A DNA stretch of 64,000 nucleotides from Methylorubrum populi. GTDB taxonomy: Bacteria; Pseudomonadota; Alphaproteobacteria; Rhizobiales; Beijerinckiaceae. A program made the position numbers and the translations under genes. The notes under the pieces were generated by a model. That model saw only the letters and a program-made list of their open reading frames with translations. It made no database searches and was not told the origin of the DNA. Positions 663-52,647 of this stretch are shown here, piece after piece (position 1 is the stretch's first letter; each line of letters opens with the position of its first letter). Location of the stretch: assembly GCA_036946625.1 (NCBI GenBank), contig JAQIIU010000002.1:744001-808000 (forward strand), written 5' to 3'.

Positions 663-789
663 GCGGAGGGGATGGTGACGGCCATCGCTCAAGCCCCCTC
701 CCCGGCATAGAGCGCCGCGGTCTCTTCCGGCGTCAGCGCACGAAACTCCCACGCCGGCTCGTGGACGTCCTGAAGATACTGTCGGCGAA

Positions 790-1353
790 TCAGGCGGCCT
801 GTGCCAAGGCTGCGAAGCGTGTCGTGCGCGTCCTGGCTCGCGGCACTGCCGCCAACCAGTGTACGACCCGCGCGGCGTTCATCGCTGCGGCCACGCACAC
901 CTGCTGCAGTCCGGTCCTGGCTTGGCCGATGTATCGGCTCCTGCGTAGTCCGAAGGCCCGCACGCCCTGCGAGAGCGTGCCTTCGATCCCGGCGCGGATG
1001 CGATACCGCTGCTTCCAGGCTGGATCCTGCATCCGGTCTCGAGCGGCGTTCAGCGCCTCGTATTCCGGGCGCGGCAGGAAGTAGACGGAGCGGCGCGCCT
1101 CCTTCGACGCGGTGCAAAGCGCTCGCGTCGCGCAGGCGCCGCAATCGGTCCGGCTGAACACCGCCTGGAAGCGCGGGGCACCGACCTCGTCGCGGGTAGC
1201 GCGCCACGTCACTGACGTCTTGCCCTGGGGACAGGTGACCCGCTCGCCTTCCCAGTCGATTGCGAAGTGGCGCTGTTCATAGGTCTGCTCAGCCTGCGTC
1301 GCCCGCCTCGGCATGGCGCGGACCGGCCCTTCCAACGCGACGTCATGGTCGCG
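790..1353 (-). pseudogene. IS1182 transposase, C-terminal part
   Basis: 187 codons from the breakpoint (reads RDHDVALEGPVRAMP) to the stop at 790. It contains the IS1182 cysteine cluster (SRTDCGACATRALCT) and the C-terminal DDE glutamate region (YRIRAGIEGTLSQGVRAFG). It differs from the copy at 16513 by one substitution (MPRRATQ versus MPRQATQ). The N-terminal part is at 1474-2562 on the other strand, so no functional transposase is made here. Confidence 0.85.
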
Positions 1354-1473
1354 TCAAGGCCAACGCCGATTTCCGCGACGCCGTGGAGCACTACTGCGTC
1401 CAGCTCGGCGCCGCCGTTCAGGAGATACTGTCGGCGAATCAGATGGTCGGGGGTGTTGGCACGGAGGTGCGCG

Positions 1474-2562
1474 ATGAGCCTGCGACCGGAACCGATCGGC
1501 GCGATCCCCGTCGAGACGGCGCGCGTGGCGCGCGCGGCTTTCCCCAAAGGGACGGTCGCGACGCGGTTGCGCGATGAGTTCAGCGCCCTCTACCAGGACG
1601 AGGACTTCCGCGATCTCTATCCGACCCGCGGCCAGCCCGGTCTTGCGCCCTGGCGGCTGGCCCTGGTCACGGTCCTCCAGTTCTCCGAGCACCTGAGCGA
1701 CCGTCAAGCGGCCGACGCCGTACGTGCACGCATCGACTGGAAGTACGCGCTCGGTCTCGAATTGACCGATCCGGGCTTCCACTTCAGCGTGCTGACCGAG
1801 TTCCGTGCCCGTCTCATTGCCGGCGGCGGCGAGCAGTTGCTGCTGGACCGGATGCTCGCCCGCTTCAAGGCTCGGGGGCTGGTCAAAGCGCGCGGCAAGC
1901 AGCGCACCGACAGCACGCACGTGCTGGCTGCCGTTCACGATCTGCACCTCCTTGAACTGGTCGCCGAGACCCTGCGCGCTGCGCTCGACGATCTCGCTGC
2001 CGTCGCTCCGGACTGGCTGCGCGGCATCGCTCGACCGGTCTGGTTCGAGCGCTATGGACGCCGGGTGGAGGACTATCGCCTGCCCAGGGCTCGGACGGAA
2101 CGCGAGGCACTCGCTCTTGCGATCGGTACGGACGGGTTTGCCCTACTCGAAGCGCTGGACGCGCCGGCGGCACCGCCTGAGGTGCGGGCCGTGCCGATGG
2201 TGGGAACGCTGCGCGATGTATGGCGAGTGCATTATGCCCGCGAGGGAAGCGGGCCGCCACGGTGGCGCAGCGGCGCCGAGTTGCCGCCGGTCGGCGAGCG
2301 ACTGCAGTCTCCCTACGACCCGGAGGTCCACTACAGCACCAAGCGGCAGATGGAATGGTCGGGTTACAAGGTACACGTCACCGAAGTCTGCGATGCGGAC
2401 GCGGCCCATCTGATCACAAACGTGATGACCTGTCCGGCGATGCAGCCGGACATGGCGAGCACGGCCGCGATCCACGAGCAGCTGGCGGCAAAGAACCTTC
2501 TGCCGGCCGAGCACTTCGTGGATGCCGGCTACGTCGATGCGGGACTGCTGGTCGGTAGCCGA
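1474..2562 (+). pseudogene. IS1182 transposase, N-terminal part
   Basis: 363 codons, starting MSLRPEPIGAIP, 51 nt inside the terminal repeat. It holds the N-terminal domain (TRGQPGLAPWRLALVTVLQF, LSDRQAADAVRARIDWKYAL), the first catalytic region with the DST motif (KQRTDSTHVLAAV) and the second (MEWSGYKVHVTEV, with the DAGY motif near its end). It breaks off after LLVGSR at 2562 and runs on in frame only as noise. With the 187 aa on the minus strand the full protein would be 550 aa, normal for IS1182. Confidence 0.87.
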
Positions 2563-2751
2563 AGCGCGCCGACATCTCGATCAGGGCCGCCATCGCCGCC
2601 TCGGTCGGCGGCGTGTCGCCGCTCAGGCCGAACAGCAGGCTCGGCCCGGCGACCCGGCAGAAGTGGACGGAGACCTCGATGCCGCCGTCGGCGGCGGTGT
2701 CCATCAGCCTCTCGGCCCGGCGGGGCTCGGGAAACATCTCGATGACGTCGC

Positions 2752-3141
2752 TCATAGGGTCTCTCCGTAGCGGGGCGTATCCGCGCCTCGATCGACCAGC
2801 ATCGACAGACGGCGCATGGCCACTGCGATGGCCGCGATGGCATCGGACAGATGCCGGCATTCAATGGCGTAGACGCCGGCAGCCACGTCGCTCCGGCCGT
2901 AGGCGTGGAGGCTGGCCACGTAATCGGCGAAGGCTTGGAGGTCGCCCGGAGAGGCGATCAGACGGGCGCTGCGCACCAGACCATCGGTGGCACCCTCGTA
3001 GGCCTCGCGGGCGGTCTGGTATTCATGCCAGTGCTGGCCGCGGTGACGGCTGGCCCTGGCGTGGAACGAGCGCGCCTCGGGGCAGAAGTCGGCCCAGGCC
3101 TTGCGGTGCGCGTCGATCGCGGCGGAGACCGACCCGCTCAT
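2752..3141 (-). CDS. Hypothetical phage early protein, 129 aa
   Basis: I do not recognise the family. The product is soluble and mostly helical, starting MSGSVSAAIDAHRKAWADFC and ending RGADTPRYGETL. The start at 3141 overlaps the stop of the antirepressor (ATGA), and its own stop overlaps the start of the next gene by the same ATGA. Translational coupling with both neighbours argues that it is real and expressed from the early-left promoter. With the antirepressor split upstream by IS481 its transcription is probably reduced or taken over by the IS. Confidence 0.7.
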   Translation of the reverse strand: MSGSVSAAIDAHRKAWADFCPEARSFHARASRHRGQHWHEYQTAREAYEGATDGLVRSARLIASPGDLQAFADYVASLHAYGRSDVAAGVYAIECRHLSDAIAAIAVAMRRLSMLVDRGADTPRYGETL

Positions 3142-3220
3142 GACAAGGCCCCCGCCGGGATCTCGATCGCGTACGCCTCGCGCCACACCTCGGCGTGATA
3201 GGCTTTCACGGTTCCATAGT

Positions 3221-4264
3221 TGTTTGATCCCAGGGTTTGATGGTGCACTCTTCACGTTGGAGTGGAGGGACGCGCTATGGGCCAAGTTCTTCACGGCAGC
3301 GCCACCACGACGGAGGCAGTCCGTCGAGCGATCCAGCATAGTCAAGCGAGCCTGAGGGCGCTCTCGAAGCGCTACGGGATCAACCGGAAGACGGTCGCCA
3401 AGTGGCGGCAGCGGACCTCGGTCGCCGATCAGCGCACGGGTCCGAAGGATCCCCGCTCGACGGTGCTGTCACAGGAGGACGAGGCGGTCGTCGTCGCCTT
3501 TCGCCGCCATACGCTCCTGCCGTTGGACGACTGCCTCTACGCGCTCCAGGCGACGATCCCGCACCTGACCCGTTCGTCGCTGCATCGGTGCCTGCAGCGC
3601 CACGGCATCAGCCGACTGCCGGAGGTCGACGGTGACAAGCCCAAGCGGTCACGCTTCAAGACCTGCCCGCTCGGCTATTTCCACATCGATCTGGCCGAGG
3701 TTCACACAGCCGAAGGGCGACTCTACCTGCTCGTCGCTATCGACCGCACGACCAAGTTCGCCTTCGTTGAGCTCCACGAGAAGGCCACGCGGCGGGTCGC
3801 AGGTGACTTCCTCCGCCATCTCATCGAGGCCGTGCCTTACAAGGTGCACACGGTGCTCACCGACAACGGCACCCACTTCACCACGCCCGGCAACGTCGCC
3901 TCGGCCGCTTCCGTCATCAAGGAGGCGATTGTAGCCGGCGAGACCTTCCGAGCCCACAGCTTCGAACTTGCCTGCGCCCGCAACGATATCGACCATCGGC
4001 TGACCAAACCGCGCCACCCCTGGACGAACGGTCAGGTCGAGCGGATGAACCGCACGATCAAGGACGCGACGGTCAAGCGCTACCATTACGACAGCCACGC
4101 GCAACTCCGTGCGCACTTGGCCGACTTTGTCAGCGCCTACAACTTCGCACGCCGTTTGAAGACCCTGCGCGGCCTCACGCCCTACGAAGCCATCTGCAAG
4201 GCATGGTCCGCTGAGCCCGGCCGCTTCAGGTCAAACCCGCTCCACCAAATGCCGGGACCAAACA
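3221..4264 (+). mobile_element. Complete IS481-family element with 6-bp target duplication
   Basis: 1,044 bp. The left end reads TGTTTGATCCCAGGGTTTGA; the reverse complement of the right end reads TGTTTGGTCCCGGCATTTGG, an imperfect terminal repeat. Flanking CATAGT at 3215-3220 and 4265-4270 is the target duplication. The element lies antisense within the antirepressor. A 194-bp left-end piece of the same element occurs at 39428-39621, identical over the part I compared. Confidence 0.92.
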
Positions 4265-4269
4265 CATAG
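3277..4269 (+). CDS. IS481-family transposase
   Basis: 330 aa. An N-terminal HTH (residues about 12-45, ASLRALSKRYGINRKTVAKW) is followed by an rve-type DDE core: first Asp in GYFHIDLAEVHT, second in VHTVLTDNGTHFT, and Glu in PRHPWTNGQVERMNRTIKDA. A start at MGQVLHGSATTTEAV fits the family better than the in-frame ATG 15 nt upstream. The stop codon TAG (4267-4269) is not in the IS: it is supplied by the duplicated target CATAGT, so the protein's last residue and end depend on where the IS inserted. Confidence 0.93.
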   Translation: MGQVLHGSATTTEAVRRAIQHSQASLRALSKRYGINRKTVAKWRQRTSVADQRTGPKDPRSTVLSQEDEAVVVAFRRHTLLPLDDCLYALQATIPHLTRSSLHRCLQRHGISRLPEVDGDKPKRSRFKTCPLGYFHIDLAEVHTAEGRLYLLVAIDRTTKFAFVELHEKATRRVAGDFLRHLIEAVPYKVHTVLTDNGTHFTTPGNVASAASVIKEAIVAGETFRAHSFELACARNDIDHRLTKPRHPWTNGQVERMNRTIKDATVKRYHYDSHAQLRAHLADFVSAYNFARRLKTLRGLTPYEAICKAWSAEPGRFRSNPLHQMPGPNT

Positions 4270-4922
4270 TTCGCGTCGGGCACCGAAATCGGAAGCCACC
4301 CCTTCTGCTGCGAGATGCGCTTGAGGAGGCGCCAATCGAATTCCCGGCCGCGGTGCAGCGCCTCCATCCGCTTCACCGTCGCGTACTGACCCGAGCGGTC
4401 GAGTTCGATTTCCAGGCGGTTCGCCCTCTGAGCCTCGCGGCTGGCTGTCGCCATGGCCGTTGCCTCGCGGCGCGAGCCGATCTCGGCCTTCCTCCGTTCC
4501 GCCAGTACCCGTGCCTCGTACTGCTCGGCCCAGGCCCTGGCGGCAGCGGCCGGATTGGCGAAGTCGGGGATGGCGTAGGTGCCGGTCCGGCGGATCGCCG
4601 GCAGCACGTCGTGGAACACCCAGCGCTGGAAGCGGGCGATGAAGGCGCGGGTCCCGGCCGGGATCGCGGAGGTGGCGCGGCGCTGGACGATCGCCCGGTA
4701 GAGCCCGGCCTCGGAGATGACCGAGACATCCTGCTCTCCGCCAGGGGTACGCACTCGGTGCGTACCCTTTTCGTCGTCGTCCAGGCTGCGCTTCAGATCG
4801 GCAGCATCACGATGCCCCAGGAACGCGGCGACATCGCCGGCAATGAACCAGGGCTCGTCGCCAAGGAGCAGGCTACGCAGCGTGCGGCCTTCGAAGGCGT
4901 AGGGAACGAGCGCGGCCATGGA

Positions 4923-5105: not shown

Positions 5106-5804
5106 CTATCTTGACAGTTTGCCCGCCACCTTATGGCAAACCGGCCATTCCATCCGTGAAAGTATTAATTCTTTCTCGGGGTTCCACTGCTTTATTGTCC
5201 AGTTTTCATCACTAATATTTGTCAGTATTCCAAATTTAACAGGTGTATACGATCGGCGATTATCACTAAATCCTTTGAATAAGCAGGTATTTCCCTTTAC
5301 GGGAGGAAAGTTTGAGTCTACAAAAGCATTTTCCCCCGGCCGCAGTTCAGGCTCCATATCGCTGTCGTAGACTACAACGCCATAGCTTATTCTATATAGG
5401 CGGAAAAATCCCAGCGTCGGCATAAAGCTGCTAGGGCTTGGCTCGATCAGAGCCTTTCCATCATTGGTTTTAATAATATTGTATACTTCTACTGCCTCCT
5501 GAATTGAGACAATTTCTTCAGAAGAAAATTCCAAATCCGCAGATTTGGGCTCATTTTTATCAACCCAGTCAAGAAGCTCCTGTGACGGGACTGAATTGAG
5601 CGTTTCTTCCACTAATGTTCGCACATCAACTCTGAGGGCACTAGCTAGTTTAATAATATTGCTTCCCCTGACTGTAGACTTCTTTCCTTGCAATATATCA
5701 TTGACAAAGCCTCTCTCGAGGCCAGCGCTCTTTGCTGCTTCAAACGGATTCGTTCCGATTTCAGCGAGTCTGCGCTCGACGAAGGCTTTGAGTGTGCGTT
5801 CCAT
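5106..5804 (-). CDS. CI-like phage repressor, HTH plus S24-type domain
   Basis: 232 aa. The N-terminal HTH-XRE domain (residues about 5-62; NPFEAAKSAGLERGFVNDIL) is followed by a linker and an S24/LexA-like C-terminal domain (VVVYDSDMEPELRPGENAFV), which normally mediates dimerisation and, in cleavable members, RecA-stimulated self-cleavage. I could not find a clear Ala-Gly cleavage site. I chose ATG 5804 because HTH homology begins there; an in-frame GTG lies 15 nt upstream. The gene is clearly more AT-rich than its surroundings, suggesting recent transfer. It is divergent from the gene at 5889. Confidence 0.88.
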   Translation of the reverse strand: MERTLKAFVERRLAEIGTNPFEAAKSAGLERGFVNDILQGKKSTVRGSNIIKLASALRVDVRTLVEETLNSVPSQELLDWVDKNEPKSADLEFSSEEIVSIQEAVEVYNIIKTNDGKALIEPSPSSFMPTLGFFRLYRISYGVVVYDSDMEPELRPGENAFVDSNFPPVKGNTCLFKGFSDNRRSYTPVKFGILTNISDENWTIKQWNPEKELILSRMEWPVCHKVAGKLSR

Positions 5805-5888
5805 GTAGTTTTTTCCCACGTTTCACAGGCCAAAGCGAGTAGGATATTTACACTTGATGGATGGGATTTTTTCTACTAAACTCCCATC
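5805..5888. promoter_or_regulatory. Divergent repressor/early-right control region
   Basis: AT-rich 84-bp interval between the divergent repressor and the 96-aa gene, the position of the lambda OR/PR/PRM region. It holds T-rich and A-rich stretches (GGATATTTACACTTGATGG and a TTTTTT run). I did not find a clean pair of operators by eye, so the exact sites are not called. Confidence 0.5.
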
Positions 5889-16496: not shown

Positions 16497-17351
16497 AGAT
16501 ACTGTCGGCGAATCAGGCGGCCTGTGCCAAGGCTGCGAAGCGTGTCGTGCGCGTCCTGGCTCGCGGCACTGCCGCCAACCAGTGTACGACCCGCGCGGCG
16601 TTCATCGCTGCGGCCACGCACACCTGCTGCAGTCCGGTCCTGGCTTGGCCGATGTATCGGCTCCTGCGTAGTCCGAAGGCCCGCACGCCCTGCGAGAGCG
16701 TGCCTTCGATCCCGGCGCGGATGCGATACCGCTGCTTCCAGGCTGGATCCTGCATCCGGTCTCGAGCGGCGTTCAGCGCCTCGTATTCCGGGCGCGGCAG
16801 GAAGTAGACGGAGCGGCGCGCCTCCTTCGACGCGGTGCAAAGCGCTCGCGTCGCGCAGGCGCCGCAATCGGTCCGGCTGAACACCGCCTGGAAGCGCGGG
16901 GCACCGACCTCGTCGCGGGTAGCGCGCCACGTCACTGACGTCTTGCCCTGGGGACAGGTGACCCGCTCGCCTTCCCAGTCGATTGCGAAGTGGCGCTGTT
17001 CATAGGTCTGCTCAGCCTGCGTCGCCTGCCTCGGCATGGCGCGGACCGGCCCTTCCAACGCGACGTCATGGTCGCGTCGGCTACCGACCAGCAGTCCCGC
17101 ATCGACGTAGCCGGCATCCACGAAGTGCTCGGCCGGCAGAAGGTTCTTTGCCGCCAGCTGCTCGTGGATCGCGGCCGTGCTCGCCATGTCCGGCTGCATC
17201 GCCGGACAGGTCATCACGTTTGTGATCAGATGGGCCGCGTCCGCATCGCAGACTTCGGTGACGTGTACCTTGTAACCCGACCATTCCATCTGCCGCTTGG
17301 TGCTGTAGTGGACCTCCGGGTCGTAGGGAGACTGCAGTCGCTCGCCGACCG
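16497..17351 (-). mobile_element. IS1182-family element, 5' part deleted
   Basis: The 3' terminal sequence AGATACTGTCGGCGAATCAG at 16497-16516 abuts the IS3 OrfB. Similarity to the 774-2562 element runs to 17351 (GCTCGCCGACCG), where a recombinase gene takes over, so the 5' half and its terminal repeat are gone. It covers the inversion breakpoint of the other copy and serves as the reference across it. Confidence 0.85.
16513..17351 (-). pseudogene. IS1182 transposase, C-terminal 279 residues
   Basis: Reads from GERLQSPYDPEVHYSTKRQM to the stop, including WSGYKVHVTEV, VDAGYVDAGLLV, the cysteine cluster and the C-terminal IRAGIEGTLSQGVRAFG. The frame is open about 29 codons further up, but that part is antisense to the recombinase. 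The first catalytic region (DST) is missing. Confidence 0.88.
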
Positions 17352-50628: not shown

Positions 50629-52481
50629 CAGCCGGGGCTCTTCCAGGCGCCGCGATAGTCCACCGCGCCGGCACCGCAGTGCCAGGTGACGCGGTAGCTC
50701 GTCCCGATCTTCCTGAATTCCTGCTCCACCTCGAGGCGCGGCCCCTCGAAGCCCTGAAGCGTGAGGAAGCGGATCACGGGGTAGAGCGCCGGGTCGGCGA
50801 ACAGATATCAGGGCGCTACCTCCGACAGCCGGGGCTCCACCAGCACCTCCAGCTTGCCGGCGAACGGGTTGGTGTCCTCGCCCCGCGTCGGGGAGATCGG
50901 CGCGACGAGCCGGTCCGCTGCGGTCTCCAACTCGTTCGGGACGAGGATGAATTTCGGCGAGATGCCGAGCTTCGTCCGCTTGTCCAGGGCGGTCTGGTTG
51001 CGCATGGCGAGGCGGCCGGCGCCGGCCGCATCGATGGAGATCGGGCCGGTGAGCCCGAGATTGCCGTGGTCGGCATGGAAGACGGTCTTGCCGTCCGACA
51101 GCTTGGCCGCGAGCGCCGCGAGGATGAGCTTGGACTTCAACTCGCCGGTCGCGAAGCCGATGTCGCGGATGGAGCGGTCCACCGCGCCCAGATCGTCGTT
51201 GACCAGGACCTGGAACGTGACGCCGATGCCCTTGCCGTAGCTGGCGATGGCGATGGACTCGCCGCTCTCGTCCAGCGTGCCGAACTTGATCTCGCCGTGC
51301 TCGTTCACCTTTTCCAGTTCGGGGAAAGACGACAGCCGGCCCTCGTTCTGCGGCCGGAAGTCCTTCGCCGTGCCCGGTGCAGCGATGCGGGCGGCGCCGC
51401 CCTCCGCGGCCTTGAACAGGTCGAGCAGGCGCCGGTTCATGACGTTGCCGAGCATCAGCGGGAAGTCGCCCGTGCCGTGCATCCCGCCGCGCTCCATCAT
51501 GCCGGTGGCGATGCGGTCGGGCCGGGCGAGGTCCACACGCTCCCCGCGCGCGCGGAGCAGGTCAGCGCCGATGTCGAGCAGGCGCTTGCCCATGAACTCG
51601 CGGGCCGCGCCCTCGGGCGCCGCCCCGCTCATGCGGGAGAACAGGGCGCCCTCGATGGACCGGGCCATGAAGTCGGGGTTGTCCAGGCTCTCGTTCTGGA
51701 AGTGGCTGCGGGCCGTGGCGCCGGTCGGGGTGCCCTCGGCGCGGCGGGCCATCGCGTCCAATGCCTGGGCCCGGAAGTCCTCGACGCTCGTGCCGCCGTC
51801 GATGGCCGCCTGAAGCACGGCCGGTCCGAGCCGGCCGCGCGTGGCGATGTCCGTGATGGTGCCGACGCGGAGCCGCTCGGCGCGGGTCTGCACGTCGAGC
51901 GCCGGGCGGTTCGCGGGCGGGTCCTGCGGGGCGCTGCGGGTCTGGATGTCGTCGTTCTCGGGTTCCATGTGTCCTCCTGCGGAGCGGATGAAGGCGTTGG
52001 GATCGGCGGGCATGGGGACGAGGCTCAGCTCGTAGGGCTCCCAATCCACGTGGGTGACGGTCCGGCGGCCCTTCGCCGGGGTCTTCTCGTCGGAGGCGTA
52101 GGCGCGGTAGCCCACGGAGACGTTGCGGATGACGCCGGCCGCGAGGTCGGCGCCGATCGACGCGACCTCGGCGCGCTCGGAGAACTGGCCGGTGACGATG
52201 AGCTCGCCGCCCTCGATCCTGGCTCCGGTCACCACGCCGATCTGGTCGGCGAGCGTGCCGGACCGGTGCGCGTTGAGGATCGGGGCGCGGCCGGAGGCGA
52301 AGCGGGCGAGCCGGATCGCCTGGGCCGAGATGGAGAGGCATTCGTCGTAGGTGCCGCCCTCGAAATAGTCGGGGCGAGAGACCGGCGTGCCGGTCGCGGC
52401 GACGGCGGTGAAGGTTCGCGTCTCGGGGTCGTATGAGCCGGCCGAGACGCTGGCGCGGCGGGTCACAAGGTCGGGGGGCAT
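50628..52481 (-). pseudogene. Prohead protease-major capsid fusion with a nonsense codon
   Basis: Reading 618 codons from ATG 52481. Residues 1-190 are a ClpP-like/HK97-type prohead protease (GRAPILNAHRSGTLADQIGV, EPYELSLVPMPADPNAFI); a scaffold-like linker follows; residues about 300-617 are a Mu gpT-like major capsid (EHGEIKFGTLDESGESIAIA SYGKGIGVT; GISPKFILVPNELETAADRL). At 50810-50808 an in-frame TGA replaces an expected Trp (VAP-stop-YLFADPALYPVI), and the frame then runs 59 codons to a natural stop at 50628 (DYRGAWKSPG). A single TGG-to-TGA change explains it. The 557-aa product lacks the capsid C-terminus. Confidence 0.82.
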
Positions 52482-52647
52482 GTTACTTTCGCCTCCTGGC
52501 GAGCGAATGCTGCAAACACCTCTCCAGCAATTGATATTGCGGAGAATGCATCGCGGATGCATTGTTCATGTCGATCAAGACCTGCAAATAAAAGCAGGGA
52601 TCAACAAAAGGGGTGCAAGGTGGCCGAAGCTCTTCCTTCGCTGCCGA

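Follow-up and report, generated by a model that had tools for sequence, protein, structure and literature searches.

An IS1182-family insertion followed by an inversion accounts for a scrambled element and its interrupted host gene in Methylorubrum populi

The window, the whole 64,000-nucleotide stretch analysed here, corresponds to positions 744001–808000 of contig C2 in a 4.79-Mb Methylorubrum populi genome (G000) assembled into three contigs. Near its left end, next to a brnT–brnA pair named by Pfam, lie three pieces of a small host gene interleaved with two parts of an IS1182-family element. The 3′ end of the host gene (689–768, reverse strand; the last 80 bases including the stop codon, matching the C-terminus of homologues) is followed by CCTGA (769–773), one copy of a 5-bp target duplication that has kept its orientation, and then by the 3′ part of the element (774–1355, reverse strand; IS 1139–1720, with one terminal inverted repeat). 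Beyond a left inversion junction at 1354–1356 comes the middle piece of the gene, flipped and 67 bp long (1356–1422, forward strand), which matches the middle of the homologues and holds the second copy of the duplication, now inverted and reading TCAGG (1418–1422). The 5′ part of the element (1423–2560, forward strand; IS 1–1138, transposase start at 1474) stands in the opposite orientation to the 3′ part and ends at a right inversion junction at 2560–2562. Finally, the 5′ part of the host gene (2561–2755, reverse strand; 195 bp) comprises its first 65 of 113 codons, with the ATG at 2755. The two borders have TC (1354–1355) and GA (2561–2562) in common, so that the placement of the inverted segment is ambiguous by 2 bp: it can be written as 1356–2560 (1,205 bp) or, equivalently, as 1355–2561 or 1354–2562.

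When this inversion is undone in silico, the two parts join into a 1,720-bp IS that agrees at 1720/1720 bases with an intact copy at another site in the genome (C2:1116519–1118238), the 3′ part contributing 582/582 identical bases, and that is bordered by CCTGA at either end. Removal of the element together with one CCTGA then yields a 113-residue frame with its stop codon, the three gene pieces (195 bp from 2755–2561, 67 bp from 1356–1422 and 80 bp from 768–689) adding up to 342 bp. Breakpoints of IS and gene alike fit together, as does the 5-bp duplication, without a base lost or gained, a fit far beyond chance. A preliminary description, made from the sequence alone, had read the two opposite half-elements as one IS and had proposed one 1.2-kb inversion and one insertion with a TCAGG duplication; the identity of the rebuilt element to the intact copy bears out the first proposal, and the pieces fall where it had placed them, with coordinates slightly refined.

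The intact copy has an open stretch of 567 codons from its first base, or 550 codons from an ATG, and its transposase (L022 544–2185) scores 312.6 bits against NF033551 (cut-off 270), which places it in the IS1182 family; the two window halves, taken alone, match the same model partially at 199.6 and 100 bits, under the cut-off, and carry DUF772 and DDE_Tnp_1_6 domains. As is typical of the family, the element has terminal inverted repeats, the first 20 bases being the same at both ends. In the intact copy these identical ends form inverted repeats; in the window copy they are direct repeats. At least eight near-identical copies were found in the genome with probes from both window halves (40 of 248 and 40 of 204 candidates were scored, and the counts are lower bounds): the intact copy, the window copy, one comprising IS 218–1719, a fragment of IS 866–1720 at window positions 16497–17351, and a derivative lacking 313 bp internally, which is present as three complete copies and one ending at IS 1132. 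Two separate matches are weaker (C3:205541, 86%; C2:398057, 80%). Some match to the IS occurs in 53 of 111 genomes of the genus, a set with one genome per species.

A more distant relative lies on pMR68 of Pseudomonas sp. K-62 (CDS NC_019309.1 25421–27073), which is 84.9% identical over a 1,721-bp alignment covering IS 1–1720, with the same ends; unlike the window copy, it is uninterrupted and has an annotated full-length transposase gene. The preliminary description had noted that a natural junction in a related IS at the point of the inversion would speak against its reading. None was seen: IS 1138/1139 is continuous in six of the eight near-identical copies, the others being the window copy and the one ending at 1132, and it is likewise continuous in pMR68 and in a relative in genome G101 that runs uninterrupted over IS 959–1720 (82%); continuity was read from these sequences.

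Duplications of 5 bp flank the element at four independent sites: CCTGA in the window, TCTCC at the intact copy, CACCT/AGGTG at the deletion derivative (L025 and L027) and CAAGG on pMR68. L023 and L026, where the flanks have been rearranged, show no duplication. The IS1182 family also contains the staphylococcal element IS1272. The 5-bp duplications at these four sites appear to set the present group apart from IS1272, for which one report describes a mode of insertion that replaces inverted repeats and leaves no target duplication (PMC5678879). A literature search combining the IS1182 family with Methylobacterium found nothing.

Two further observations concern the surroundings of these copies. 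The 313-bp deletion of the derivative has a 2-bp overlap and abolishes the frame. Its four copies (L024, L025, L026 and L027) share a common flank at the IS 5′ end, in a gene that is presumably an IS3-family transposase; this shared flank suggests that the derivative was carried along as a passenger when it spread. At the 3′ end, L026 has a different flank, and the window fragment at 16497–17351 has that of L025 and L027.

The second observation is an IS481-family element in the window (3221–4264, within 3215–4270; transposase frame 3262–4269; NF033577 287 bits, cut-off 224). It is flanked on either side by a 6-bp duplication, CATAGT, lies at the 3′ end of an antirepressor-like frame (4182–4919, reverse strand) and has at least 15 copies in the genome that cover at least 1,044 of 1,059 probe bases (over the searches for both elements, 40 of 155–248 candidates were scored). 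At L024 (2179–4041) and L023 (1320–3865), IS481 abuts truncated IS1182-family copies at IS 1132 and IS 218, respectively, with no duplication visible, as if it had made adjacent deletions there. On pMR68 (L046 1540–4207), an IS481-family gene adjoins the IS1182-family gene and overlaps its annotated start, a neighbourhood that recalls the IS481 copies beside this IS in the genome analysed here.

The interrupted gene is present in three of the 111 genus genomes, including the one analysed here; the other two are probably Methylobacterium sp. Leaf117 and Leaf123, in which relatives occur. Neither of the two homologues (L021 and L020) is interrupted; with 62% and 67% identity to the rebuilt protein, they run through all three pieces in the same order, in agreement with the earlier claims that the 67-bp piece and the 3′ end at 768–689 complete the gene starting at 2755, and that a single 113-residue frame results. 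At L021 (genome G051), the neighbours brnT and brnA have their relatives as well, in an uninterrupted brnT–brnA–gene arrangement. The rebuilt empty site aligns collinearly with this locus over 1,014 bp (84.8%, four gap openings); from the unedited window (first 3,500 bases), only 40–761 aligns, together with one weak 65-bp match.

The interrupted gene itself had been called a phage gene, a label suggested by its neighbours, repressor and antirepressor genes. Neither Pfam nor PHROG returned a significant family for it, nor did NCBIfam, searched with one homologue; the intact homologues matched 0 PHROGs at E values up to 0.05. A Pfam match to DUF5804 (E 0.098, in one of three members) was disregarded, and the first 64 residues, those of the N-terminal piece in the window, had no match among 50,697 phage records. 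At all three loci, the same strand carries a phage-type repressor upstream (window 5106–5819; L029 2872–3858; L030 2931–3755), and in the window an antirepressor gene stands between repressor and interrupted gene. Among the matches listed, this antirepressor gene accounts for 19 of the best 20 of 57 phage records. A phage origin of the interrupted gene is therefore plausible, on the circumstantial ground of association with these neighbours. The scan covered 28 distinct window proteins. Just upstream of the broken gene, a 129-residue frame (2755–3141) has no Pfam or PHROG family and is represented in 8 of 99 genomes of the genus, its own included; it is a small, patchily distributed family. 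Phage structural genes lie toward the right of the window, among them one for a prohead protease/major capsid fusion protein (50811–52562; NF045541 519.7 bits, slightly below the cut-off of 525).

We regard the anatomy of the locus, both events and their order as established, and we consider it very probable that two successive events, an insertion and then an illegitimate inversion, explain the arrangement. As proposed earlier, the order follows from one breakpoint lying inside the element: insertion must have come before inversion. The 1,720-bp element would have entered the 113-codon gene beside brnT–brnA by ordinary transposition, duplicating CCTGA. A 1,205-bp segment, from the element interior to 67 bp past its end, would then have been inverted by illegitimate recombination with a 2-bp overlap, which would have split the transposase gene, turned the element ends into direct repeats and scattered the gene in three. 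On account of these three changes, the element has probably lost its mobility and the gene its function. As the window copy does not differ from the intact one at any base, insertion and inversion are both likely to be recent.

As to how the inversion was joined, the overlap of only 2 bp between the borders speaks against homologous recombination and against any known type of site-specific switch; inverted repeats at the borders, of the kind an invertible switch has for its recombinase, were not found beyond these 2 bp. A transposase reaction at the element ends is disfavoured as well, because both IS ends keep their duplications and neither lies at a junction. The joining would have been made by end joining or by template switching during replication, and not by a site-specific enzyme. 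Although the GA/TC overlap noted in the preliminary description is real, it has little weight as evidence of mechanism: among 200,000 simulated pairs of cuts, one in the IS and the other between the IS end and the gene start, 20.7% share at least 2 bp. A search for the Ku gene (PF02735) found none in the genome (0 of 1; 99.99% complete), and the control search over 14 named genomes was positive in one, Bacillus subtilis. Since none was found, Ku-dependent end joining is not favoured, and Ku-independent end joining or template switching would be the preferred routes. Small illegitimate inversions with microhomology are a familiar kind of event. The present inversion resembles them in its lack of long inverted repeats at the borders and in its 2-bp overlap, which is itself within chance. 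No close bacterial parallel was seen in the portions of the literature that a search returned.

A string spanning the left junction, allowed up to two mismatches, was found in 13 of the 111 genus genomes at 16 places, of which one, in the genome itself, is exact and 15 carry two mismatches. A control string read backwards matches 12 genomes, and the 15 inexact matches are therefore treated as chance. The exact string does not occur in viral contigs, and the inverted junction comes from a single assembly.

A local breakage hotspot at IS ~1132–1139, within a 13-base hairpin (GTCGGTAGCCGAC; IS 1129–1141), was also considered. The idea stems from the inversion break at 1138/1139 and from the copy in the same genome that is ended at 1132 by IS481. 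Break points among copies of the IS fall at 218, 298, 612, 866, 1132 and 1138; by a rough estimate, two of six would lie within 6 bp of each other by chance in about one case in ten, and hairpins of that size cover 14% of IS positions. We think such a hotspot distinctly improbable and mention it as a weak lead only.

The alternative accounts fare worse. A three-contig assembly with at least eight near-identical IS copies and at least 15 IS481 copies offers occasion for error, and a misassembly or chimeric read could in principle have produced the inverted order. Repeat-driven misassembly joins sequences at repeat ends; here, however, a 67-bp stretch of host gene is flipped along with part of the element, and the overlap at the junction is 2 bp. 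We therefore give this account very little credence. An artefact of assembly, or a mixed culture, is likewise unlikely, because the junctions do not lie in repeats of a length that would lead an assembler astray. It is less probable still that the transposase made an adjacent inversion by intramolecular transposition. The identity of the element to the intact copy suggests recency and a transposase that was probably active at the time, but adjacent inversions put an IS end at the junction, with an inverted target duplication, and here one junction is at IS 1138/1139 and the other 67 bp past the element, whose ends keep their original flanks. Finally, although truncated copies of the same IS do exist in the genome (IS 218–1719, 866–1720 and one ending at 1132), the chance that two copies, truncated independently, came to lie head to head is next to nil: both truncation points meet in the IS without loss of a base, the gene pieces, all three, likewise join in frame without loss and match homologues, the outer flanks of both halves bear the same 5-bp duplication, and the collinear match of the empty site to L021 together with the 1720/1720 identity already refutes this reading.

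Insertion followed by illegitimate inversion is an event of an ordinary, familiar kind, and the locus is a clean case of IS decay that leaves the general view unchanged. It is fully solvable, and the inversion end within the new insertion fixes the order of events. Insertion and gene loss are probably irreversible here, since precise excision of the element can no longer restore the gene. More widely, annotated remnants of insertion sequences that lie head to head may represent one scrambled element.
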